Shown here: positions 2-60,960 of the stretch, piece by piece
Position numbering within the stretch: position 1 is the stretch's first letter
How the letters are laid out: each line of letters begins with the position of its first letter
Origin: Congeria kusceri
Lineage: Eukaryota; Mollusca; Bivalvia; Myida; Dreissenidae
Direction: 5' to 3'
Length of the DNA stretch: 64,000 bases
Assembly: GCA_027627225.1 (NCBI GenBank)
Contig: CM051024.1
Coordinates: forward strand, 79,112,504 to 79,176,503
The notes under the pieces: model-generated
What the model saw: the letters and a program-made list of their open reading frames with translations, nothing else
Told to the model about the DNA's origin: nothing
Database searches by the model: none
Translations under genes and position numbers: made by a program

Positions 2-789
2 ATAGGAGATATTAATTTAGGTAGTTTTATTGAACTCCCCAAGTATGATTCGTCTTATGAATTACCAAAACGTCTCAGCTTTGATAACAGTGTTAACGGT
101 TTTGGTAATAAGCTATTACATTGTTGTAAGGATAATTCTATTATCATTGTTAAGACAGACTTGACAATGGCAAATACACCTTTCATAATCCGACTGGTTA
201 AGGTTCAAGCGTTGTTGATTATGTTATTACAAATACCAACATATTTAGTAAAATGACGTCATTTGTTGTTCATGATATAACAGACATCTCTGACGATTGT
301 CCGGTTGAATTTACAATGAATTTAGATGGCTGTATTGCTGTTATTAACGATAATGAATATATTGAACAAGTCATGTGGGGCTCCCATAGCCCAGATACAT
401 TTACCAACCTTTTAGAAAACAATAGAACTATGCTTGATATAATTCAAAATGTACTGCTTTCAGGTAAACTTTATATAAATACATGTATTGAATCATTGCC
501 TAAGATGCTTTTTGATATCTCGTTTTTGATACATGGTAAGGTTTTAAATACATATTATTCAACTAAAATTAAAAAATCACTATGGTTTAGTGATGCATGC
601 AGATCATCTAAAAATAGATTCTTAACTGCCAAAATAACTTTTAAAATTAATCCTACAGAAAATAATAAAACTGCTTTTTTACACAGAAGAATTATAATAA
701 CGAAAACAATAAACTGTCTAACATGTATAAAAAAAATTCTAAGAATTTTTGGAAGTACATTAAACAATTTAGTAAGAAAACTAGTGTGA
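2..789 (+). pseudogene. LINE endonuclease C-terminus and linker (frameshifted)
   Basis: Positions 2-208 translate to a stretch with GDIN, RLSFDNSVNGFGNKLLHCCK and IIIVKTDLTMAN, matching the late part of a LINE apurinic-like endonuclease. A +1 shift near 210 continues as VVDYVITNTN and then SDDCPVEF at 289-312. In active endonucleases the last motif is SDHxPV, with the His catalytic; here a GAT codon at 295-297 gives Asp. The remaining reading frame to 789 contains a linker with LWFSDACRSSKNRFL, which has a counterpart in the second LINE (WFNDDC...) near 53.6 kb. The original function would have been nicking target DNA for target-primed reverse transcription. This copy cannot be functional. 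Confidence 0.82.
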
Positions 790-805
790 ATCCAACAGAT
801 GTTTC

Positions 806-2149
806 ATGTTTAAAAATATTTCAAACTTTGTTAATGTTTCGGCTATTCATACTGAAAATGTTAATGAGATAGATATAAATATTGATGAGTTAGATATAGA
901 TTTTGTAATAGATGAAGTGGAAAAAGGAATATCATTGCTTAAAAGAAATAAAAGTTGCGATCTTGTTGGCAACGTCTGTGATTTTATCATAGATGCGAAA
1001 CATTTTATTGCAACTTATCTTGTTGTAATTTTTAACTACATTTTTAAAAATGGCAGTTATCCAGATGCTTGGTCCAAGGGTGTACTTGTACCTATTCATA
1101 AAAAGAGATATACCGAAGATCACTATAATTATAGGGGCATCACTTTGATCAATATGTATGCAAAATTATTTTCCTTATTACTTAGAAACCGCATAAACAG
1201 ATGATGTGAAAATAACAATACATGTAATGATTCTTAATTTGGGTTCAGAGATAAGCATCGTACAACTGAATGCATTTTCATTTTGCATTTGATCATCCAG
1301 AAAGTTCTAACGTCTAATAACAAATTATTTTGTGCATTTATTGACTATGAAAGGCTTTCGATACTCTAAATCATGATGATCTATGGGTAAAACTTGTAAA
1401 ATACGAATTGAATTGTAAAATCATAAATCATAAATATGATAAAGTATATTTATGCAAATATTAAATCTTGTGTCCGATTTACTTCTGACATGTGTTATTC
1501 AGAATTATATGACAAATATCACTGGGTTTGAAACAGGGTGAGCCCCTCTCTTTCCGTTTCAGTTATACTTTTTATTAACGACATTACTGATTATATTGAT
1601 GTTATAAGTTTATCGGACCGAGATATTGAACAGTTATCATTTTATCTTCTGTTATTTGCTGATGACATAGCGCTTTTTACAACTAATCCGATAAGTCTTC
1701 AGGCACAACTTAACAGCATATCGCAATACTCGACATCATGTGGTTTAAAAATTAATGTTAACAAAACTAAGATTTGTATATTTGAAAAACCTAGGAGTCG
1801 CCATACTTACCAGTGGGTTATAAATCAGCAACCTTTCGAAATTGTTGACAGCTTTTGCTATTTGGGTATTATGTTTTATTACACTGGAAATATGCGATAA
1901 GCCGTGAAAGCTCTGTCTGATCAAGCCCTTAAAGGATACCATAGTCTTCTTTGCATATTTAATAATGTCAAAATAGATATTAAGACTAAATTACACTTAT
2001 TCGACTGTATGATTTTACCTATTATTTTATACGGTTCAGAAATATGGGGAATATATAACTTTGAACAAATTGATGCTTTACATTATAAATGTCTTAAAAT
2101 TATTCTTGGTGTAAAACAGTCAACCCCCAATATGGCCGCATTAGGATAA
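806..2149 (+). pseudogene. LINE reverse transcriptase, broken by several frameshifts
   Basis: The frame at 806-1204 carries the start of the RT palm: PDAWSKGVLVPIHKK and NYRGITLINMYAKLFSLLLRNRI. After a broken stretch, FCAFIDYE at about 1330-1350 marks the first catalytic Asp motif, frameshifted just after. The frame at 1538-1900 holds the catalytic FADD box at 1655-1666, then LKINVNKTKICIFEK and FCYLGI. The next frame, 1904-2149, encodes a thumb segment with KALSDQAL, KLHLFDCMILPIILYGSEIWG and ILGVKQSTPN. The role of the family is synthesis of element cDNA at the nicked target. At least three shifts and in-frame stops separate these blocks. Confidence 0.9.
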
Positions 2150-7526: not shown

Positions 7527-8432
7527 TTCAAAGGGGCCTGTTAATTTTCAAAATGTGTGTCACTTACTCCAAAAAGAAAGGTACATTTTATATAAAGAAA
7601 CAAAATAAGTTCAAATAACACAACGGACACAGAAATATATTGGAAACACAGTGTCTTTGATGAATAACAACCAAATGAAATTCTTAAAGGGACTATGTCG
7701 TCTAAAACGGCCCCAAGGTGGCAATTTCTTTAAAAAATCTGAAATTTATATATTAATATTGGCATATAATAACGGTTAAAACAGGGTATATACAATGGGA
7801 AAATAGTTTACTCATATTCTTAGATAAAAATCAACTTATAATATGTGTTTTGTTTGTTTGGCCCTTTTCCTGTTTCCATTTTGACGTCGGAATTAGGAGC
7901 ATTTTATATATCCATAGATACACACAATTCTTTACCAAGCATGATAGCGCAGTTGGTTAAAGCTCTGTCTACTGTCATTTCTTCGTATATCTCCAAAGTC
8001 GTGAATTCGATACCCACTCGGGATTTCATTTTTTTCAGACGATATTGCTAATTTGTTTTTATCAAATATCTTATTGTTAATTATATTTTTTTATTTAACG
8101 CGCATGTCTAAATATAGCGCATTACTATCATATAAAATGAATTTATGAATATGAAGCAAATCTTTCGTTGACATAGTCACTTTAAAACAATAAATCGTTT
8201 CGAACTATTCTCGTCGGTGTATCACTTTCATAGCGTAAACATTACACACCATGTATAGTATGTATTTTGATACCGGAGGTTGTATGCTTGAGTCCCGGCA
8301 GAGGCAATTCTTTTTACTTTATTAGTTTCTTTATATCAATTTTTCTTTTTGGTTAGTCCAGATGATGTGATTTTTTTTCATTTAAGGCATTAAATAATTT
8401 TTTTAAATACGAAAACATATGTGAATAAGGTA
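7527..8432 (+). mobile_element. TTAA-bounded element family 2, copy interrupted by a family 1 element
   Basis: The left part (7527-7683; ttcaaaggggcctg, aaaaagaaaggtac, agaaatatattggaaa) and right part (8186-8432; cgtttcgaac, gcttgagtcccggc, ttagtccagatg) each match consecutive parts of the complete family 2 copy at 57875-58321. The intervening 7684-8185 is a family 1 element. The B-box-like cttgagtcccggc at about 8288 belongs to a tRNA-like module. This is a nested insertion, with the outer element the older one. Confidence 0.72.
7684..8185 (+). mobile_element. TTAA-bounded inverted-repeat element with tRNA-like module, family 1 copy A
   Basis: It starts TTAAAGGGACTATGTCGTC and ends GACATAGTCACTTTAA, so the termini are imperfect inverted repeats bounded by TTAA. 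Internal blocks shared by all copies are 'caatttcttt', 'ggcatataataacggttaaa', 'aatgggaaaa' and 'ttgacgtc'. A central tRNA-like module holds a perfect A-box-like TAGCGCAGTTGG and a B-box-like 'gaattcgatac'. There is no coding capacity. It sits inside a family 2 element. Confidence 0.8.
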
Positions 8433-8968: not shown

Positions 8969-9496
8969 TTAAAGGGACTATGTCGTCGAAAAGGGCCTCA
9001 AGGTGGGGGGGGGGGGGGCAATTTCTTTTAAAAATCTGAAATATAAGATAATAATACTGGCATATAATAACGGTTAAAAAGATTATATATAATGGGAAAA
9101 GAGAGTGAGGTAAAAATCAATTAATAATATAGGTTTGTTTGTTCGACCAAAATCAATAAATAATATAGGTTTGTTTGTTTACATTTTGACGTCAGAACTA
9201 TAAGTTTTGTGTATAAACATACTTAACACACGTATCCATACAAAGCTGAATAGCGCAGTTGATTAAAGTGCTGTCTACTGTAATTTATTCACATGGCTTC
9301 TAAGTCGTGAGTTCGATACACGCTCGGGGTTTAATTTTTTTTAACCTTTCCTTATTTGTTTTTATCAACTGTCTCATTATGTATGATAGTTTTATTACTT
9401 ATTCAATTCACATGTCTTAGTATAGCCAATTTCTATCATATATAATAATTTCTAGTGCAAAAGAAAACCAATTTTTCGTTGACATAGTCCGTTTAA
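8969..9496 (+). mobile_element. TTAA-bounded element with tRNA-like module, family 1 copy B
   Basis: Ends are TTAAAGGGACTATGTCGTCG and GACATAGTCCGTTTAA. The A box is TAGCGCAGTTGA and the B box region 'gagttcgatac'. It differs from other copies by a run of about 14 G at 9004-9017 and a local duplication of 'atcaataaataatataggtttg' sequence near 9115-9175. Confidence 0.8.
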
Positions 9497-14104: not shown

Positions 14105-15299
14105 AACAAGAGTGCCATTGTCACAAAGATACGCCAGTCAAAGAAGCTTTTTTTGCGGTAAAGATTCACCGAATAAAGAGAAAGAAATCAAAAACTCATA
14201 AGGTAAAGTCATGGTATCTGTGCACCTAATTCGTCTCCAAAGCCTCTCTGTGTGGTGAGTTGAGGTATCAACACTATTGCATATATATACAAAAATTTGT
14301 AATAAAGACGAAAACATAAAAAAATCAACCAAAACCGGACAAAAATATGCAACGGACAATGTGAAGGATTCACTTGTTATATTTTACTTTTGACCTTGAA
14401 TTGTGACCTTGACCTTGGACATACGAACCTGGTTCTTGCGCGTGAAACTCCGACTCACCATGCTTTTCTTGTATGCCAAGTTATTTGAACTAGATAACTG
14501 TTGGCAACATGTCGAGCTGGTTGTCAAGATAGCAACTTGTATTGTAATTATTTTAAATTATTTTTTTACAAACAAATCTTCTCCTTTGACCTCTAAGTGT
14601 GACCTTGACCTTTGAGCTTGGGACGACACAGATCTTGCGTGCAACACGTTTCTCCACACGGTGAACTTTTGTTACAATTTATTTTAAAATTCCCTGATGA
14701 ATGATGAATGAACAGTCAAAAAAAGCTTTATTATTCTCATATGTGACATTGACCTCTAAGTGTGACCTTGACCTTTGAGCTAGGGACACATATTTGGCTT
14801 GAAACACGCATTCTCTACATGATAAACATTTGTGGCGAGTTAATTTAGGAATCCCCAAATGAATGATGAATTATCAGTCCGAACAAGCTGTATTATGCCC
14901 ATATTTGACCTTTGACCTCTAAGTGTGACCTTGACCTTTGAGCACGGATACAGGTCTTGTGTACAAAACGCCATCATCACATGCTGAACATTTGTGGCAA
15001 GATATTAAAATTGCCTGATGAATAGTGAAGTTACAGTCTGGATAAGCTGTAAGATGCCGATATTTGAAATTTGACCTCTAAGTGTGACCTTGACCTTTGA
15101 GCTAGGAACACGGGTCTTGCGTGCCGTCTTTAGATGCTGAACATTTGTGGTAAGTTATTTTGCAATTGCCTAATGAATGAGGAGGTTACAGTACGGACAA
15201 GATCGGAGGGACGCACGCACATACACCGAACGACCATTGTGACAACTAAGACTAGCTGACCGCAGGTTGGCTCGACAAAAACCATACATACTCGACAAA
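14105..15299 (+). repeat. Tandem-repeat element, subfamily 1 (~160-bp units rich in TGACCT)
   Basis: It begins with 'aacaagagtgccattgtcac' and ends with 'cgcaggttggctcgacaaaa', which I associate with a common bivalve dispersed element. In between are about five units recurring near 14406, 14601, 14768, 14929 and 15088. Each contains 'tgtgaccttgacctttgagc', 'gaacatttgtgg' and 'gaatgatgaa'. No protein is encoded. Confidence 0.8.
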
Positions 15300-16680
15300 G
15301 ATATGCTCCAGACAAAGTGTTATGTATTGATTGCTTAAATTTGAATTGTGTCCTTGAATTGTGACCTTGACCTTGGACATAGGGACCTGGTTCTTGCGCG
15401 CGACATTTTTCGACTCACCATGCTTGTCACTTCTGCCAAAATACTTGAAAAACAATCCATACTGGACAAAGATATGCTCCAGACAAAGTGACATCTATGG
15501 ATTTCTTAAATTTGACATTTGACCTTGAGTTATGACCTTGACCTTGCACATAAGGACCTAGTTATTGTGCGCGACACTCCGACTCACCATGCTTGTCACT
15601 TATGCCAATCTATTTGAAAATCCATCCATGTTGGACAAAGATATGCTCCGGACAAACTCTTAAGTATTGATTTCTTATAATTGACTTTTGACCTTGAGTT
15701 GTGATCGTGACTTTTGACATAGGACCTGGTTCTGGCATATGGCACTGCACCTCACCATGCTTGTCACTCCTGCCAAGTTGTTTGAAAATTCATCCATGCT
15801 GGACAAAGACATGCTCCGGACAAAGTGTTATGTATTGATTTCATAAATTTGAACTTTGACCTTGAATTATGACTTTGACCTTTGACCTTTGACCTTGGGA
15901 CCTGGTTCTTGCGCGCGACACATCGACTCACTATGCTTGTCTCTGCTGCCAAGTTATTTGAAAATCCTACCGTGGTGGAAAAAGATATGCTCCGGATGAT
16001 GTGTTTAGGATTGATTTCTTTAATTTGAACTTGACCAAGAATTTTGACCTTGACCTTGAACCTAGTGACCTGTTTTTTGTGCGCGACACTTCGCCTTACC
16101 ATGACTGTCACTTCTGCCAAGTTATTTAAAACTCCATCCATGCTGGACAAAGATATGCTCCGGACAATGTGTTTAGGATTGATTTCTTAAATTTGACCTT
16201 TGACGTTGAATTGTGACCTTGACCTTGGACCTAGGGACCTGCTTCTTGCGTGCGACACTCCGACTCACCATGCTTGTCACTTCTGCTAAGTCTTTTTAAA
16301 ATTTATCTATGCTGGACAAAGATATCCTACAAACAAATTTTATAGGATTGATTTTTTTAATTTTACCTTTGACCTTTAATTGTGACACTGATCTTAGGTA
16401 CCAGTTTCTTGTGCGCGACACTCCGCCTCACCATGCTTGTCACTTCTGCCAAGTTATTTGAAAATCTATCAATGCTTGACAAAGTTATGCTCCGGACAAC
16501 GTGTGAAGTATTGATTTCTAAAACAATTAACTTTGACACTGAATTTTGACCTTGACCTTGGACCTAGGGACCTGGTTCTTGCGCGCGACACTCAGTCTCA
16601 CCATGCTTGTCACTTTGCCCAGTTATTTGAAAATCCATTCATGCAGGACAAAGATATGCTCCGGAGAAAGTTTTTTCCCG
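15300..16680 (+). repeat. Tandem-repeat array, subfamily 2 (~165-170-bp units rich in TGACCTTGA)
   Basis: About eight units share 'gaccttgaccttggac', 'gggacctggttcttgcgcg', 'gactcaccatgcttgtcac', 'gccaagttatttgaaaat' and 'ggacaaagatatgctccgg'. Open frames on both strands (such as 15764-16150 minus) simply follow the repeat. Dense TGACCT/AGGTCA half-sites are noted in the findings. Confidence 0.85.
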
Positions 16681-22085: not shown

Positions 22086-22589
22086 TTAAAGGGACAGAAA
22101 ATCGGCTTCCTATTGCACTATCAATTATATTGTTTGATAGAAAGACACGTGCAGTAAATAAATAAAAATTAAATAATACAAAATAAGTTGTTTAATAAAA
22201 ACAAATTAGTGAAAAAGTCTGAAAAAATTAAAAGCCCAGGCGAGTATCGAACTCACGACTTAGGAGCCATACGAAGAAATGACAGTAGACCGAGATTTAA
22301 CCAACTGCGTTATCTAACCAACTGCGTTATCATGCTTGGGAAGGAGTCCTTTGTAAACGATGGTTATACAAAATGCTCACAATTTTGACGTCAAAATGTA
22401 AACAGGAAAAAGTCCAAACAAGCACAACATATATTATAAATTGATTTTTATCTCAGAATGTGTACACTCTTTTCCCATTATATATACCCTGTTTTAACCG
22501 TTATAACATGCAAGTATTAATATCAAAATTTCGGATAGTTTTAAGAAATTGCTTCCTCGAGGCCCTTTTGGATGACATAGTCCCTTTAA
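22086..22589 (-). mobile_element. TTAA-bounded element with tRNA-like module, family 1 copy C
   Basis: Reverse orientation. The ends are TTAAAGGGACAGAAAATCGG and GATGACATAGTCCCTTTAA. The B-box complement is 'gagtatcgaactcac' at about 22242. The A-box region (minus) is tandemly duplicated: a 17-bp 'taaccaactgcgttatc' occurs twice, within about 22298-22331. Confidence 0.8.
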
Positions 22590-30272: not shown

Positions 30273-30330
30273 AAACAAATGACTAAAAAGACATATATAT
30301 ATATGTGTGTGTCTTTTTTGTCATTTGTTT
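30273..30330 (+). repeat. Hairpin: 21-bp near-perfect inverted repeat around TA/TG dinucleotides
   Basis: The arms AAACAAATGACTAAAAAGAC and GTCTTTTTTGTCATTTGTTT flank a (TA)n/(TG)n loop. It lies in the presumed intron after exon A. Confidence 0.8.
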
Positions 30331-31780: not shown

Positions 31781-32892
31781 GTATTGCTGTCAAAGCCTTA
31801 TTTCTTATAAATACAAATACTCATGCCTCAAAAGCGGATAAGATCACAATTGTATTATTACAGGAAGTTTCCGCAATAATAGGCCAGAGACTTAATGCCA
31901 ATGTGATTGACCAGAGTGGAAAATACAACTGAAATCACTATTTTATTGGACATTACTTAGGCCTAGAGACACTGTGCCCAAAACATTGAAAACAATAAAC
32001 ATTAAACCACAATGTATTTAAATCTAGGGCCAATATGCATTGGAAACTTCCAGTCTATAAACATCCAATCTTTACGCGATTGGATCTAGAATCACTATGT
32101 TAATGAACGTTTAAAACAATCCGATTAATTTCAGTGTTGTTATTAATTACTAATTATTGAAAATATAAACACTTGTCGTATGAATGTTCTGTAAGAGGTT
32201 ATGGCACTGTAGCATGGTCGCCACCACCAAATGTGTTTGCCTTTATGTGTTTTCACTAAAGGCCGCTGTAGTACATGGTTGGCGATAAATACAGGACATA
32301 ATTATGGGCTGCTAACAGTATTTTTCAACATTTTTTAAAAGTCTCCTGATGCTGACCACTTTTGATACATCTAATTCATTATGATATCTTTGTCTGCAAA
32401 ATGTATTCTGATTACAAGACTAGATACCTTCTGTATAACTTTAGTATGTTACTTTATTGAGAAATTATTAGAGTCAAGCACCGTTATAATGTTCGTAATT
32501 CAGAAATAAAGTACATCATGTCCTCTACTATCCCGTTGACCGGTCTGGCCGAGTCCGTCGCTAAAGATGCGGACCGTCTTTTATGAGCGTTTACAGTATA
32601 TGAATAAATAAGTTATCATACGCATACCTTGTTTTCCGTATAATACAGCATTTACAAATACTTTTATCCTACGCATGTGTAAGATAACATTTAGATTGTT
32701 TTCATTGGCTACACATTCTTTGATCTTTTGGTAAATTTATACGCCATTTTTTTCGTTTAAAAGCATGTGATCAAAGGGCTCGCTTACTAACACAATTCCT
32801 GAAATCGTTTAATAAATTATGGTATAAAATGACAACTCTTGTCAGATCCTATATATCTTACACATTTCTATCATCCTGTATTTATTTGCCAG

Positions 32893-33089
32893 ACTTATTC
32901 GGGAACTTGTCAGACATAAACGCGCTACCTAAAGACGCTGATCCAGTGTTTATAACTGGAGTTTCCTCTAATCACTTGCACGAGTCCCTAGACATGTTCA
33001 AGAACTTCAATTCTGTGGTGAGGAAAATGAAACCAAAACTGAGAATGATATTTTATGACTTGGGGCTGCAAGCTGGCGAACCAGAAAAA
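32893..33089 (+). CDS. Exon C: start of the DUF1647-like domain
   Basis: The acceptor is 'tatttatttgccag' and the donor 'gtaagg' at 33090. The exon enters in phase 1 and leaves in phase 0. The peptide contains DADPVFITGVSSNHLHESL, then FKNFNSVVRKMKPKLRMIF and YDLGL. The run 'PVFxTxxSxNHxxES...F.DLGL' is the hallmark I associate with DUF1647 proteins, which are abundant in nematodes and molluscs and of unknown biochemical role. It joins cleanly to exon D. Confidence 0.75.
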
Positions 33090-33988
33090 GTAAGGCTGTC
33101 TTATTGTCTCTTAAACATCTTAACTGTATGTTATTACTTTACGCCTTTGGTTTAAAAACGCGATACCTTGTGCCAAATCAGAACACTTAAAAATGATAAT
33201 TATGTATAATTTAAAAATAAATGAAATATTTTAAGCACCCTTTTTCTTTTCTTTTCAATTATCGAAGTTTCCCAGGATTTTGTCTGGAATAACATTTCGT
33301 AAGTTAATTGTTAACGGATTGGTCAATGATAGTATAAATACTTTTGGAAATATGGATTACTTTGACGGATATAATAAATTACAAAGATGCACTGGTTGGT
33401 TGGAAGGACAGAAAGCGGCATTTTGTAGTAGATCGTTTTAAATTCGGGTAACAACTATGTATTTTGGATCCGCTACGTTTTTTGCTCCTTTATTTAAATG
33501 TCTTTATCATCAGCGATACTCGTAAAGTTTCCAATCTAAGATCATGATTTTTAAATGTTTTCTTGATTAGTTTCCTTAAATACAATGTACAAGTTTTGTT
33601 ATAATTATAATGTTTCAGTCTTTTAGTCAATTCTGAATATCGTTGGGTTTTTTGTTTCAGGGAGCTGAATTGGGAAGACTATTATACGATGTTTCGCTTC
33701 TTTTTTTTATGAAAACAAGTTTTCTTTTCTTCAGCAAGAAGTATATTAAAATACATTATGTGAAACTGCAGGAGAAACCATTTATAGCATGGCATTGACG
33801 TGCCCGTAAACATAGATAGAATACTATTCCTAATATAAACTACCCTGCAACATTTTGTGCGTGTTTCAAACCACAAGTCAAACGTTTCTATGTATGTTTA
33901 CGGATTAGGTCAACTGTCCCACATATAGTGGAACCCTTTATTAATGTCGCCCTATTTTAATTCGCTTTGTTAACCTATTTGTTTTTAG

Positions 33989-34093
33989 ATAAAATCAATC
34001 TGTCAGTGTGAATACAGACTGTTCCCATTTGAAAGGTTTCCAGATCACGTAAAACAACTCAAAACCTATGCCTTCAAACCGCTGTCAATATTG
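33989..34093 (+). CDS. Exon D: central DUF1647-like segment
   Basis: The exon is 105 bp (35 codons), phase 0 at both ends, with 'gtttttag' acceptor and 'gtaagg' donor. It encodes ICQCEYRLFPFERFPDHVK and KTYAFKPLSIL. The Cys-x-Cys followed by Arg/Phe-Pro and the Tyr-x-x-Lys-Pro motif match the family pattern. It is too short to stand out by ORF length and was identified by splice sites and continuity with exons C and E. Confidence 0.78.
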
Positions 34094-34545
34094 GTAAGGT
34101 ATATATAGATGCTGTGGTGGCTTTTAGAACACACGTATAGTAAATTCAGCGGTAATCAAAACAAATTTATTTAATGAATTATTGAATTAAAATAAAATGT
34201 ATGAGACAATGTGTTATCTTTAAATCTCCGCAATAGTTTATAGTTATTTATAGTGCAGCGATTCTACTACATGCATTATCTGGCTAACTGTATTATTTTA
34301 GATTGTTTGGTGTCATTAAGTACACGGTTATTCTATCGGCATCCAACTAATTATTATCCGTCAAGTTCCGAATTTCTAGCATGTGTTTATCTGCGGCTTT
34401 ATTTTTGTGTAAATTGTGTAAGGTCCGCGTCAATTTTACCGAATTTGCTTTCATGGCAAAGGATTCAAAGATTCAGCTGCTGGCATTTATAAAGTTTAAG
34501 ACTTCTTTTAATGTTCATACATGAATGTTTATGTTTATAATCCAG

Positions 34546-35022
34546 ATGGTTTTGAAGGAATACCCGTTCGCCTTGTGGATGGATTCATCGATACGTTTTA
34601 AGGAAGCTAACATTTCACAACTGTTCGACATGGCTCGAAAACTGGATGTCATCTGTATGGCCGGCGACGGATCAATCGCGCTTCGAACACTTCCGGCGAC
34701 CTTCGAATATTTTAGCGAGCAGCCGTGCACCTTCCAAAATCTGTCAGAAATTCAAGCTGGATTTTCGATCACACGAACAGCTCCATTTGTTGTGGAGAAC
34801 ATACTAAAGCCTTGGGTTGCATGCGCCCTTCTGATTGACTGTATGGCGCCACACGATGGACCTATGAAATATTTATATTGTGGTCAGCATGGAAAAGTTT
34901 ATGGCGACTGTCATAGATTTGATCAGTCCGTGTGGGGAATACTGCTGTATCGCGCTTACGGCTATGACGTTTTCAAACACATGCACAACTTTCGAGGAGA
35001 TTTTGTGTATATATCACGGTGA
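34546..35022 (+). CDS. Exon E: C-terminal DUF1647-like exon with stop
   Basis: The acceptor is 'ataatccag'; the exon continues exon D in phase 0 and ends with TGA at 35020-35022. It encodes about 158 residues: YPFALWMDSSIRFK near the start, then CMAGDGSIALRTLP, IQAGFSITRTAPFVVENILK, then KPWVACAL, CHRFDQSVWGILLYRAYGY and RGDFVYISR at the end. WMDSSIRF recalls the DxD-like metal site of nucleotide-sugar glycosyltransferases, and the family is often suspected to be glycosyltransferase-like; that function is inference. GC content and codon structure stand out from the surroundings. An AATAAA lies at 35260-35265. The exon appears intact. Confidence 0.85.
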   Translation: MVLKEYPFALWMDSSIRFKEANISQLFDMARKLDVICMAGDGSIALRTLPATFEYFSEQPCTFQNLSEIQAGFSITRTAPFVVENILKPWVACALLIDCMAPHDGPMKYLYCGQHGKVYGDCHRFDQSVWGILLYRAYGYDVFKHMHNFRGDFVYISR

Positions 35023-44161: not shown

Positions 44162-44675
44162 TTAAAGGGACTATGCAATCGAAAAGGGCCTCAAGGGGGC
44201 AATTTCTTTAATAAAAATGAAATTTATATATTTTTACTGGCATATAATAACGGTTAAAACAGCGTATATATGATGGGAAAAGAGTGTACGCATTCTGAGA
44301 TCACAATCAATTTATTACATGGGTTTTGTTCGTTTTGGCCCTTTTTCTGTTTACATTTTGACGTCAGAATTGTGAGCATTTCGTCTAACCATAGTTTACA
44401 CACGACTTCTTACCAAGCATTATAGCGCAGTTGGTTAAAGCGCTGTCTACTGTCATTTCTTCATAAGGTTTGGTTCCCAAGACGTGAGTTCGATTCCCGC
44501 TCGCGGTTTTAATTTTTTCAGACTTTTTTGGTAATTTGTTTTTATCAAATATCTTATTGTTTATTATATATTTTTATTTATTAAATGCACATGTCTTAGT
44601 AAAGCGCATTTCTATCAAATAATATAATTTATAGTGCAATAGGAAGCCATTTTTTCGTTGACATAGTCACTTTAA
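44162..44675 (+). mobile_element. TTAA-bounded element with tRNA-like module, family 1 copy D
   Basis: The ends are TTTAAAGGGACTATGCAATC and GACATAGTCACTTTAA. It has the best-preserved module: A box TAGCGCAGTTGG at 44423-44434 with complementary GCGC/GCGC D-stem, and B box GTTCGATTC at 44488-44496. The A-B spacing is longer than in ordinary tRNAs. Confidence 0.85.
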
Positions 44676-45351
44676 ACTACCAATAAACAGCCCGAAAAAA
44701 ATAGTTCCGAAACTGTAAAATATAGTTCACATTGTAATTGCAGAAACGTTTTCAGGTCATGTGAGAATCGAAATAACGATGCCCTCGTGGTTTTATTCCG
44801 GCATCAGAACTCCAAATCGTTGTTTATTCGCCGATAAACAACTCGAAATTTTTGTCTTAAATATATGGTTTCCTCATGATAACTGATAAGGAAATGAATG
44901 TTTGTTACTATTTTCATAGGACACGTTTTGTGAGCAATATACTGTCAAAATGTGTATAGGAATGGTGCAAAAGATTTTCATTAATATTAAATTTGTTCGT
45001 GCTGAATTCAGATCATAGTTAAACAGTATATACTTTAAATGTAAACACCCATTTATACGTGTAAATAAGTAAACCGTTCTCTTTGGTATTAAATTGTTTC
45101 ATAGATGAAATGTGAAGCGAACATATTTAAACATTATATACTCAACAAAAAGACAGTATCCACCAACTTACATATGTATTGTTTTTCGATACTTAAACAC
45201 ATGTATTTGATATTTTAACAAAAAATAAAGTCAGAGTAATTTTAATCATCTTTCAATTAAATGCTAACATTCTTTTCTGAATCGATTCCAAATTAATAGT
45301 AAAACACAAAACAAAAACGCAACAGGTGTAAAAATCCAAATCACAGAGCAG

Positions 45352-48523: not shown

Positions 48524-49011
48524 TTAAAGGGACTATGCCGGCGAAAAATTGGCTTCCTATTGCACTATCAATTATATTATTTGATGGAAATGCACTTTAC
48601 TGAGATATATAAAATACACAATAAGATATTTGATACAAACACATTAGCAATAAAGTCTGAAAAAATTAAAACCCCAAGCGGGTATCGAGCTCACGACTTA
48701 GGAGCCATACGAAGAAATGACAGAAGACGGCGCTTTAACCAACTGTGCTATAATGCTTGGAAAGGAGTCGTGTGTAAACTATGGTTATACACACTGCTCA
48801 CAATTCTGACGTCTAAATGTAAACAGAAAAAGGGCCAAACAAACACAACCCATATTATAAACTGATTTTTATCTCCGAATGCATGCACACTTTTCTCATT
48901 ATATATACCTTGTTTCAACGGTTATCATATGCCAGTATTAATATCTAAATTTCAGATTTTTTAAGAGCTTGCCCCCTTGAGGCCCTTTTCGATCACATAT
49001 GGTCCCTTTAA
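48524..49011 (-). mobile_element. TTAA-bounded element with tRNA-like module, family 1 copy E
   Basis: The ends are TTAAAGGGACTATGCCGGCG and GATCACATATGGTCCCTTTAA. The complemented module includes 'gcgggtatcgagctcacgac' (B box) and 'ggcgctttaaccaactgtgc' (A box). Confidence 0.82.
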
Positions 49012-49244
49012 AAACAAACAAGATGCTGAATACTAAAAATATTAAACAATATATGAATGCAAAGACCGTAGTTTTTCAACCGTATTAGCAAACGTGGTCA
49101 GCGATAATGTTTTAAAATACCTCAAGGAAATTACTCACAGCATATTGTATTTTTAGAAATGTCTTAAACTGTCTTCTTTTAGAATTAATATAGCATCTGA
49201 AGTAGCAAATCTTATATCTGTAATAAAAGTAGATTAAAAAAGCA

Positions 49245-50107: not shown

Positions 50108-50780
50108 ATGCCGACACCACCACCACCGTCCACTCTATCAGCGACGACCAGCTCTTACCGCGGAAGGACCACGCCACCACCGTCCACTCCATCGGATGGA
50201 CCAGCCCTTACCGCGGAAGGACCACACCACCACCGTCCACTCCATCAGCGACGACCAGCCCTTACCGCGGAAGGACCACACCACTACCGTCCACTCCATC
50301 AGCAACGACCCGCCCTTACCGCGGAAGGACCACACCACCACCGTCCACTCCATCAGCGACGACCAGTCCTTACCGCGGAAGGTCCACACACACCACCATC
50401 GGCCACTCCATCAGCGACGACAAGCCCTTACCGCGGAAGGACCACACCACCATCGGCCACTCCATCAGCGACGACCAGTCCTTACCGCGGAAGGTCCACA
50501 CAACCATCGGCCACTCCATCAGCGACGACCAGCCCCTACCGCGGAAGGACACACCACCACCGTCCACTCCATCAGCGACGGCCAGCCCTTACCGCGGAAG
50601 GTCCACACCACCACCGTCTAATCAATCAGCGACGACCAGCCCCTACCGCGGAAGGACACACCACCACCGTCCACTCCATCAGCGACGACCAGCCCTTACC
50701 GTGGTGGACCACACCACCATCGGCCACTCCATCAGCGACGACCAGCCCCTACCGCGGAAGGACCACATCAACACCAAGCA
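50108..50780 (+). repeat. 54-bp GC-rich minisatellite, about 12 units
   Basis: The unit contains 'cttaccgcggaaggaccaca' and 'ccgtccactccatcagcgac'. The CCGCGG core recurs at about 50158, 50211, 50265, 50319, 50373 and 50431 onward, mostly every 54 bp. As 54 is a multiple of three and the unit lacks stops, frames of up to 238 codons stay open in several registers. No start context, splice signal or domain supports a protein. Confidence 0.9.
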
Positions 50781-53594: not shown

Positions 53595-56150
53595 CAGATT
53601 GGTTTAATGATGATTGTGTTAATGCGCGAACATTGTATTTGCAAGCATTACGCTTATTTAATTCTGATCAAACTAGCGCAAATAGAGCTTTACTAATGGA
53701 ACGCAAAGCCTCTTATAAAACATTGTACGAAAGAGTAAAATACATGTTACGAAAAAGATGAAAGAAATCGAAAGTCTTAAAAATGTAAACCCAGTGCTCC
53801 AGATAAATATTTGTACCGGGCGTAAATGTACGCTTACTTCTGAAAATTTGGGAGTAAATGTACACTATCTCCAGAATTTGTGACGGTAAATGTACACTCT
53901 ATCTAGGATTTTTGTGGGGAAAATTCACATCCAACAATACATAACGATATGATCAGAAGACAAGAGTATTATGACAATAATCCTTTATAATGCAGTCATT
54001 TGAATACAATTATGTTACAAGAAAGAATTCTGAACATTATAAGACTTTTACTGCTAACTACTGCACATATCAACTGCACATTCAGGTAGGCAGGCTTGTC
54101 AATACTTTTATCTGTTTCTGTCTTCCATACACTAATGTACGCGAACATCGTAAATAATTGAACGTAAATGTACACCAACATTTTTATATTCTCTACGTAT
54201 CTTCCAATTATGTGTGCGTCTGCGCGCGTTATCTGGACCTCTGTGTAAACCCAAGGAACTTTGGAAATATTTTAAAAGTAAATCAAAACAAGATATTGCT
54301 GATATTTCCTTAGATACTTTTAAAGAATATTTTGCTAATTTATTTATTCTACATTTTCTTGTTTAGAAGTACCTAAATGATAATAAGAGGCTTTACGTCA
54401 TATACGTGGATTTGATGAAACATATTGATTCTATTTACAGTAATGCACTTTGGTTAACATTGTTTAAAACTGGTATTGATGGAAAATTACTAATAATTGT
54501 TAAAGACATGTAGCAAAAAAGTTAAATCCTGTGTTAAAGCATGCTCCTTGTATTTCGAATACTTCAATTACGCTGTTGGTTTACGCCAAGGGGAGGTGAT
54601 GTCACCTCTATTGTTTTTTTGTTGTTTGCCGATGATATGGCTATTATTGGTAAAACACCTGAAGAAACTCAGAGGCATTTGGATCTTTTGTCTGTTTCAG
54701 CGTGGGGCTTTGGTAGCAAATGAAGAGTGGACCTATAATAGCCAACCAACTGAAGTTGTCAATGATTTTAATTATCTAGGCACTGTATTTAATTACACAG
54801 TGAACTTTTGTAAGAATATCGAACATCTGAATGGCAAGGCCTTAAAATCCTTACATGTTTTATTTTGTAAATGCAACTAGTTTGACCTTTCACCCAAAAC
54901 ATTGTGTCATTTATTCAATGCATCTGTATCACCAATACGTAATTATTAGTGTGAAATGTGGGGTTACACTAAATCGAAAGAACTTAAACAAATACACCTT
55001 AAAATTGTTAACGTTTATTAATGGTAAGAAGTAACACTTGATAAGCACCCGTTAATGGCAAACTGGGCTGATGTCCTCTTTATGTCCACAGATACTTCCG
55101 TATAATAAAATACTGGCTAATATAGTTTTACGCGTTGTATATAATAAGGCGCTTAAAGACTGTAATTGTGATAAGTCAGATTGGGTAACTAATGTCAAGA
55201 AACGCCTAAATGGATTCTCCTATGTGTTTGAAAATTACAACTCTGTCAATAAAAATGCATTCCTCTCTGAATTTAAAAACTGAGTCATAGATTGTTTTAA
55301 ACAAGATTGGTTACATTCAATTCAAAGTCCAGTATAAGTAGAAAGAATTTAAACTATCATTTGAATATGAAAAATATTTAGAGCTCTAAGATTTTATGTA
55401 TGTAGGCAAAGAATGTCCGTGCATCCTTGACAAATTCAAACGGGTAGATTTAGTCGTAATCGCATTGCCAACGAAGAATGATATTGTATCTGTTGTAATT
55501 GACGTGAAATTGAAGACGAATATCATTTTCTTTTAATTTGTCTTTGTTATAAGGATATAAGAAAAAACAATATTTAAAATCTCAATATTTCACGCGGCCA
55601 TCAGTATATAAATTTTTATACCTTATGAAAACATGTAACAAAGAAGAACCTATAAAGCTGTCTCTTTTTGTCAAAGAAACTCTTCTAGTTAGAAAGTCCA
55701 TTTTGAATGTTGTTTCATGAAACACGTTCGAATATAATCCACAGAAAATGTTCTGTTCAATGTTTGCTATGCTTTATAAATACGATACTTCTAGTAGTTC
55801 ATCCTTACGATACAGTCTATGAGTTAACGATTTTATAATATGTATGTGTATACCAATATAACGGTTTTCCGCGAAACATGCTGCTTACTGTTTGTATGCT
55901 TCTATTAATATTACCAAAATTACGCCAATGTAATAGTTATGTATTATGTACATTAAGTTACACGCGACTGTTTCTAACCACAAGCATTTATTATGTTTGT
56001 TATCTATGTACAATAGTTGTAATGATTGTATGATCACTACCATTTTCACATGACCTTTTATATATGCTATATATTTATGGTCAAGATAGACGCCGCACTG
56101 TGTGCAAGTCGTAATAAAATATCTGTTCTGTTCTGTTCTGTTATTTTGAT
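53595..56150 (+). mobile_element. Second decayed LINE, interrupted by a hAT-like element
   Basis: 5'-truncated. WFNDDCVNARTLYLQALRL starts near 53597 and continues to RALLMERKASYKTL. After the insertion it resumes at 54252 as KELWKYFKSKSKQDIADISL. The RT parts are LYVIYVDLMKHID (first Asp motif, 54400), ALWLTLFKTGIDGKLL, GLRQGEVMSPLLF, then a deletion and LLFADDMAI (FADD at 54625-54636). The C-terminal EYHFLLICLCYKDIR lies near 55520. The 3' end has AATAAAATAT and a (CTGTT)3 tail near 56125-56145. It is related to, but diverged from, the LINE at 1-2846. Confidence 0.88.
53792..54243. mobile_element. Non-autonomous hAT-like element (452 bp) with 8-bp TSD
   Basis: The terminal inverted repeats CAGTGCTCCAGATAA and TTATCTGGACCTCTG match at 13 of 15 positions. 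They are flanked by identical 8-bp TGTAAACC at 53784-53791 and 54244-54251. An 8-bp duplication and CAG-starting ends are hallmarks of the hAT superfamily. Inside, 'gtaaatgtacac' recurs several times. No transposase is encoded. Confidence 0.88.
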
Positions 56151-59615: not shown

Positions 59616-59853
59616 ATACTCGTATTAAAATTCCAAGTCCTTCCTTTTAGGCAAGCGACCAAATGCCAGAGCATTCGACATGGAATAAGCGAAATACTAG
59701 TAGACAAAAGATAAAATGTAATTAAAGATGGGTTGAAGACAAAACCAATCTGGCTATGAAATTTACCTGTAGAAAGCTTTTGGCTTTAACCCATCATAAT
59801 GATTGAAATTGTTAAAATTCCTTAACGAATTATTAAATATATTCGCTTCTTAG

Positions 59854-59994
59854 TGTCACGGCATGAAGTTGGTCACTTAAGCGGAGAAGTTATGTGGCGA
59901 CCCGGGTAGCTCAGTCGGGAGAGCACTTGCCCTGTAAGCGAGGGATCCGGGTTCGAGTTCCGGATTAGCCGCACAATTTTCTCACCCTATGACA
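59854..59994 (+). repeat. 5' LTR of the TRIM-like element (141 bp)
   Basis: TGTCACGG...CCTATGACA. The tRNA-like part occupies about 59897-59972. The rest includes 'aagttggtcacttaagcgga' and 'cacaattttctcaccc'. Confidence 0.85.
59897..59972 (+). promoter_or_regulatory. tRNA-like module in 5' LTR
   Basis: The perfect A box TAGCTCAGTCGG, D-stem GCTC/GAGC, loop containing TGT in anticodon position, and B box region GGTTCGAGTTC are present. C replaces the near-universal U33 and the acceptor pairing is imperfect. It is read as a tRNA-derived promoter module, not a working tRNA. Confidence 0.75.
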
Positions 59995-59996
59995 TT

Positions 59997-60014
59997 TGGC
60001 GCCCAACGTGGGAC
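59997..60014 (+). promoter_or_regulatory. Primer-binding site, tRNA-Lys type
   Basis: TGGCGCCCAACGTGGGAC, two bases after the 5' LTR. It has one mismatch to the complement of the tRNA-Lys(CUU) 3' end. Confidence 0.85.
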
Positions 60015-60105
60015 CGTGACGTTACAGGGTTTACTCTCCGAGGGCCCGTGGTAATTATAAAACTCCCTGAATTCAAGGACGAATTCATATTCGAGCGAGG
60101 GCGTA

Positions 60106-60259
60106 TGTCACGGCATGAACTTGATCACTTAAACGGAGAAGTTGTGTGGCGGCCCGGATAGCTCAATCGGGAGAGCACTTGCCCTGTAAGCGAAGGGTCC
60201 CGGGTTCGAGTCCCGGACTGGCCGCACAATTTTCCGCACAATTTTCTCATCCTGTGACA
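60106..60259 (+). repeat. 3' LTR of the TRIM-like element (154 bp)
   Basis: It matches the 5' LTR with scattered substitutions and a 13-bp internal duplication (cgcacaattttc twice) near its 3' end. The tRNA-like part lies at about 60149-60225. Confidence 0.85.
60149..60225 (+). promoter_or_regulatory. tRNA-like module in 3' LTR
   Basis: GATAGCTCAATCGG (A box-like) and the perfect B box GGTTCGAGTCC. GCGGCC and GGCCGC close the module as a 6-bp inverted repeat, and CCGGG/CCCGG form the T stem. The anticodon position reads TGT, as in the other LTR. Confidence 0.75.
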
Positions 60260-60960
60260 TTACCATACCTACAGATGGCCAAAAAGATAATCACATTCAT
60301 ACAATAATCCAAAAGTGCAGTCGAATTATGAACAACGTTTTACATCCAGATATATTGTGTATTATTACCAATGAAATTGAAATGGTTGGGTAGACAAGTT
60401 TATATACCAGAACAATTTAAAAACAAAACTCGACCTAGTATCGTGATCTTTTTTTTTTTTTTTTGGCCCCGATCGCCTTCCTTGCCTATCTTTCATGTCC
60501 TTTCACTCATTCTGGCCTCCGCTGGTATGGCACTGCAGCTGCATATATCTGTAGTACTTGCATATCTTCATCCGTAGATCCTTATGATTTCGGGCCATGA
60601 TTCAGCATCTAGTTGTTTCTCGTGTTGCACTGTTTTCGCTAGCAGTCCCTAGCCACAGCTCCACTTAGACTGCTTATGTTTTGTCCATTTTACATCCACT
60701 TTACATGCACACTGATAACTGTAAGTCACATAATTGGACATGGGAACTTTTAACACTTTTAACACTTTTCCTTGTGGTCAGTATGATTTATTGTGGTATG
60801 TCATTTGGGCACATGTTTGTCATTTTTAATATTCCTGCAGCGGTCAGGATGCTTCCAGGTACTACCAGGATACTTTCAAGTTCACTAGCGTTTTTTTGCA
60901 TATGCTTTGTCACCACTTTGATCTTATGCAGTCTGCTTGACAAACCTTGTCACAGGTCAG
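60260..60960. other. No recognised gene
   Basis: A T run at 60450-60465 and unassigned frames only. 60681-60983 encodes hydrophobic stretches (LLTLLTLFLVVSMIYCGMSF) without family motifs and is probably fortuitous. Confidence 0.35.

Follow-up and report, generated by a model that had tools for sequence, protein, structure and literature searches.

The window analysed here, a DNA stretch of 64 kb, carries a 406-bp element bounded by two long direct repeats, together with a host gene and other repeats (Table 1). Comparison of the two direct repeats by BLAST within the window resulted in a match with E 9.5e-45. In an alignment of the two, 127 of 141 aligned positions are identical (~90% identity). 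The differences among aligned positions comprise 12 transitions and 2 transversions; 12 of the 13 additional gap positions are accounted for by CCGCACAATTTT, duplicated in tandem in the 3' LTR, and the remaining gap is one base. Both LTRs start with TGTCA and finish with TGACA, which gives a perfect 5-bp terminal inverted repeat. The internal region has a capacity of 37 codons at most, and no stop-to-stop open reading frame (ORF) of at least 110 codons, the cut-off of the scan, overlaps the element. These results agree with the original prediction of direct repeats of 141 and 154 bp with a TGACA finish around a non-coding interior of ~111 bp, and the single copy is a miniature LTR retrotransposon. 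As its LTRs are ~10% diverged, the insertion is suggested to be old. Neither a second copy nor a solo LTR was found by BLAST within the 64-kb window, and exact-pattern searches of viral_contigs and genome_contigs gave 0 matches, a result from viral and prokaryote collections that is uninformative on copy number.

Table 1. Features of the element and of the surrounding window (positions within the window; LTR, long terminal repeat; PBS, primer-binding site; TIR, terminal inverted repeat).
Feature	Position	Strand	Remarks
Element	59854-60259	+	406 bp = 141 + 111 + 154
5' LTR	59854..59994	+	141 bp, TGTCA...TGACA
tRNA-like module, 5' LTR	59898..59973	+	boundaries judged by eye; core matched by Rfam at 59907-59963
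A box, 5' LTR	59907..59918	+	TAGCTCAGTCGG, exact consensus match
B box, 5' LTR	59950..59960	+	one mismatch
T4 run, 5' LTR	59977..59980	+	possible Pol III terminator
Internal region	59995..60105	+	111 bp, without T4 run, without long ORF
PBS	59997..60014	+	tRNA-Lys type, 17/18
Polypurine-tract candidate	60092..60103	+	weak, 9/12 purines
3' LTR	60106..60259	+	154 bp, TGTCA...TGACA, one additional 12-bp tandem unit
tRNA-like module, 3' LTR	60151..60225	+	ARAGORN tRNA-Thr(TGT); Rfam 60152-60224
A box, 3' LTR	60159..60170	+	exact consensus match
B box, 3' LTR	60203..60213	+	exact
T4 run, first, 3' LTR	60230..60233	+	
T4 run, second, 3' LTR	60242..60245	+	arises from tandem duplication
Candidate 4-bp target-site duplication, left	59850..59853	.	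TTAG
Candidate 4-bp target-site duplication, right	60260..60263	.	TTAC
DUF1647-type host gene exons	32724-35022	+	closest to Dreissena polymorpha proteins
~500-bp TIR element, copy	7684-8186	+	
~500-bp TIR element, copy	8969-9496	+	
~500-bp TIR element, copy	about 22143-22589	-	one end not recovered
~500-bp TIR element, copy	44162-44676	+	
~500-bp TIR element, copy	48524-49014	-	

The PBS begins 2 nt past the end of the 5' LTR, at the spacing and with the single mismatch to a tRNA-Lys-type site that had been predicted. Its 17 of 18 matching positions were counted against TGGCGCCCAACGTGGGGC, the canonical Lys PBS, as the reference. Allowing up to 3 mismatches, it is the sole match in 64 kb, and any match occurred in 1 of 100 shuffled sequences (mean 0.01). 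The 4-bp flanks of the element, TTAG and TTAC, differ at one position (3 of 4 matching; chance about 0.065); such an imperfect candidate target duplication would be consistent with an old insertion. The 5-bp target duplications expected beforehand were not found at the flanks, where 1 of 5 positions matches; 4 bp is the length reported for animal Helenus elements (PMC10886601), to which we return below.

Both LTRs contain a tRNA-like module. The matches to Rfam family RF00005 scored 39.6 bits in the 3' LTR and 32.4 bits in the 5' LTR, both exceeding the gathering score of 29. ARAGORN called the 3' module as Thr (TGT), a call limited to that LTR, and no tRNA was called by it in the 5' LTR. As drawn, the cloverleaf of the 3' module has two acceptor-stem mismatches and one anticodon-stem mismatch, and the minimum-energy fold of the 5' module is not a cloverleaf. 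The A-box consensus TRGCNNARYNGG is matched exactly by both LTRs. The two boxes postulated for the tRNA-like sequence of each LTR were recovered, the B box showing one mismatch in the 5' LTR and none in the 3' LTR. Two one-mismatch A-box matches at 59895 and 60276, obtained with a looser pattern, were taken as chance. Downstream of the module, each LTR has a T4 run, and the distance from the A box to the first T4 inside one LTR is 74-75 nt (74 nt in the 5' LTR). Measured from the A box of the 5' LTR, the two T4 runs in the 3' LTR lie 327 and 339 nt away; no T4 run was found in the 111 bp of the interior, which is only mildly informative at such a length.

Two tRNA-like units 252 bp apart, the 3' one of which can be drawn as a tRNA cloverleaf, might be explained if a gene or SINE unit derived from tRNA-Thr had been duplicated in tandem and the intervening sequence resembled a PBS by chance. 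We consider this very improbable, as the repeats are of the TG...CA type with perfect inverted tips and the PBS lies exactly 2 nt past the repeat and is absent elsewhere from the 64 kb; tandem tRNA genes or SINEs were rejected on the tips and the PBS. Genuine host tRNA-Thr genes, duplicated by chance, would account for the tRNA-Thr(TGT) call of the 3' module. Its three stem mismatches, the uncalled 5' module and the position of both modules inside LTRs accompanied by a PBS speak against this explanation, to which we give hardly any credence. The module was also considered as the element's own primer, which is unlikely: compared with the primer end that the PBS implies, its best 18-mer matches at 11 of 18 positions in the 3' LTR and at 10 of 18 in the 5' LTR, in line with the earlier claim that module and Lys primer are distinct. 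Among random stretches of the window, 17 of 500 reached at least 11/18, and the best-matching 18-mer lies at the module's own 3' end, an alignment expected between two tRNA 3' ends.

Elements of this kind have already been described as Helenus (Kojima 2024, PMC10886601), terminal-repeat retrotransposons in miniature (TRIMs) with tRNA-derived sequence in their LTRs that occur in fungi, animals and plants. According to that paper, Helenus elements are 311-1263 bp long, and the bivalve representatives comprise 51 families from five orders of pteriomorphian bivalves; tRNA-Lys is among their primers, the PBS being complementary to the tRNA 3' end, and seven bivalve families are able to encode tRNA-Thr. 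Among open-licence PMC papers, the Helenus literature beyond PMC10886601 consisted only of a 2026 meeting report citing it; three others listed under the name appear to treat butterflies and mitochondrial genomes. The 406-bp element resembles Helenus as a miniature LTR element with an A/B-box tRNA-like sequence in both LTRs and a Lys PBS, and differs in its host, which is probably heterodont, whereas Table 1 of PMC10886601 contains Pteriomorphia only. The analogy with Cassandra drawn in the original prediction had likewise been drawn for Helenus by Kojima (PMC10886601). Cassandra, a plant TRIM with 5S rRNA in its LTRs, shares with our element a promoter derived from a small RNA within each LTR, which is a predicted promoter here, but it uses 5S instead of tRNA sequence and belongs to land plants (PMC10886601). 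Ajax, a nemertean TRIM, similarly has the promoter of a small-RNA gene in its LTR, again comparable to the promoter predicted here, and is distinguished by partial 5S rRNA, 5-bp target duplications and its occurrence in two nemerteans (PMC10886601). Biv-TRIM is a miniature LTR element of bivalves, too (Satovic 2019, PMC6934838), but has repeats of 202-218 bp, an interior of 77-80 bp and no clear PBS, compared with 141/154 and 111 bp in our element. Its interior contains TGATCCCAAAGGAC, conserved in every species except one, and it was undetected by PCR in Dreissena polymorpha (PMC6934838). As TGATCCCAAAGGAC is absent from the 406-bp element at up to 3 mismatches, membership in biv-TRIM was ruled out by the sizes and this missing segment.

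The following structural traits of Helenus are present: two LTRs, short length, absence of a long ORF, A and B boxes within a tRNA-derived part of the LTRs, and a PBS at the start of the interior. Assigned on this structural definition, the element is very likely an aged copy of a non-autonomous Helenus-type TRIM, our confidence referring to this identity, with a predicted tRNA-Thr-like internal promoter in its LTRs. The assignment is based on the pairing of the LTRs and their perfectly inverted 5-bp tips, a Lys PBS unique in the window, Rfam tRNA matches in both LTRs, the two boxes and the T4 runs that each LTR contains at the distances given above, a T4-free interior, and a module that would be poor as a primer. 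Furthermore, the architecture, the Lys primer type and the similarity to tRNA-Thr are as reported for bivalve Helenus (PMC10886601). Points against it are the single copy in the window, the candidate target duplication matching at 3 of 4 positions, the weak polypurine-tract candidate with 9 of 12 purines, the T4 run that precedes the PBS in the 5' LTR and the uncalled, non-cloverleaf 5' module. The sequence supports the initial reading of a miniature LTR element whose LTRs hold tRNA-like modules and whose Lys-type primer site is distinct from them.

For the tRNA-like Pol III promoter proposed at the outset, the sequence provides an A and a B box in each LTR; its use by Pol III is predicted from these boxes, here as in the work of Kojima (2024). 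Among the Helenus, Cassandra and Ajax groups, Pol III transcription is validated for Cassandra only, and Kojima regards Pol III use of Helenus as unproven (PMC10886601). This suits a TRIM transcribed in the ordinary way by Pol II, whose tRNA-like stretch would be a passenger with no role in transcription, left by a SINE or tRNA that inserted into the LTR long ago. Such an explanation concerns the Pol III step only and overlaps with the Helenus-type reading on the identity of the element. We regard it as rather unlikely, because the A box is exact twice and the B box exact once and one off once despite ~10% LTR divergence, and because sequence around the boxes is conserved across Helenus families (PMC10886601).

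For a Helenus-type TRIM with a functional Pol III promoter, we infer the following life cycle, including read-through, helper and mobility. The two boxes of the 5' LTR would recruit Pol III, which would start near the 5' end of the module. As the T4 run of the 5' LTR precedes the PBS, a Pol III transcript ending at this run could not serve replication; the transcript must pass the run for the PBS to be included. T4 runs are leaky in animals. Pol III may at times pass the 5' T4 run, continue through the T4-free interior and stop once it meets the T4 runs in the 3' LTR. The resulting RNA of ~340-360 nt would have a tRNA-like stretch at each end serving as the R region, and the host tRNA-Lys would prime reverse transcription at the PBS. 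Copying and integration would be carried out by proteins of an autonomous element, in animals probably Gypsy, the helper of animal Helenus inferred from PBS types in common (PMC10886601). An autonomous partner was not found in the window, neither one with similar LTRs nor one with the same PBS.

The host was assigned from the DUF1647-type gene of the window. The three joined exons gave a Pfam match in exon 1 and none in exon 3, and at a cut-off of E 1e-10 the product had 27 matches. Six from Dreissena polymorpha rank first (identity 50-72%, query coverage 59-98%), a level too low to point to a species, followed by Mactra antiquata as the seventh (44%); Pinctada, a pteriomorphian, reached 39%. 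A reverse-transcriptase fragment used as a second marker gave 53 matches, none of which carried a species name. As Dreissena belongs to the Myida (Euheterodonta), the host is probably a dreissenid or another heterodont, judged from one gene of a multigene family. A heterodont host would lie outside the bivalve host list of PMC10886601, which contains Pteriomorphia only; the main text of that paper is silent on whether heterodont genomes were screened. The host range of Helenus-type elements is probably widened to heterodont bivalves.

We tentatively propose, as a plausible rather than a probable combination, that the T4 run of the 5' LTR is leaky and that the element is the first of Helenus type in a heterodont, probably of the Dreissenidae, or stems from independent origin or transfer there. 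If so, the bivalve Helenus lineage would extend beyond Pteriomorphia, or would have arisen in heterodonts independently or by transfer, and the leaky T4 would split the Pol III output into a tRNA-like RNA of ~85-95 nt and a template of ~340-360 nt with the module as R region, both sizes being estimates on the assumption that transcription begins 10-20 nt upstream of the A box. The arrangement of the two boxes and the T4 runs offers a concrete, testable model for copying of an LTR element from a Pol III transcript. For tRNA gene annotation the element provides a warning, as the 3' LTR module was called a tRNA-Thr gene by ARAGORN.

Further repeats were observed in the window. An element of ~500 bp with terminal inverted repeats (TTTAAAGGGACTATG.../...CATAGTCNCTTTAA) is present in 5 copies, four of which are 71-82% identical to the first (7684-8186) in the aligned parts. 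All 5 contain a tRNA-like A box, TAGCGCAGTTGG or one position off, and 59-64 nt downstream of it a degenerate B box with up to 2 mismatches. They constitute a MITE-like family whose core is tRNA-like, and for which we found no Rfam tRNA match at E 1 or better and no literature match among open-licence PMC papers. Frames at 202-1900 (+) and 54497-54880 (+) resemble broken reverse transcriptase as judged by eye; among them, Pfam RVT_1 was matched at 1532-1900 only, with no Pfam match for 202-789, 785-1204 and 54497-54880. For an AT-rich hairpin at 30273-30330, the Rfam miRNA matches obtained on both strands were weak and far under the gathering scores. At 15215-16675, an array of ~169-bp repeats is 62-88% identical to reference copies (families D3 and D8), and 54-bp tandem repeats at 50115-50775 leave all three forward reading frames open.
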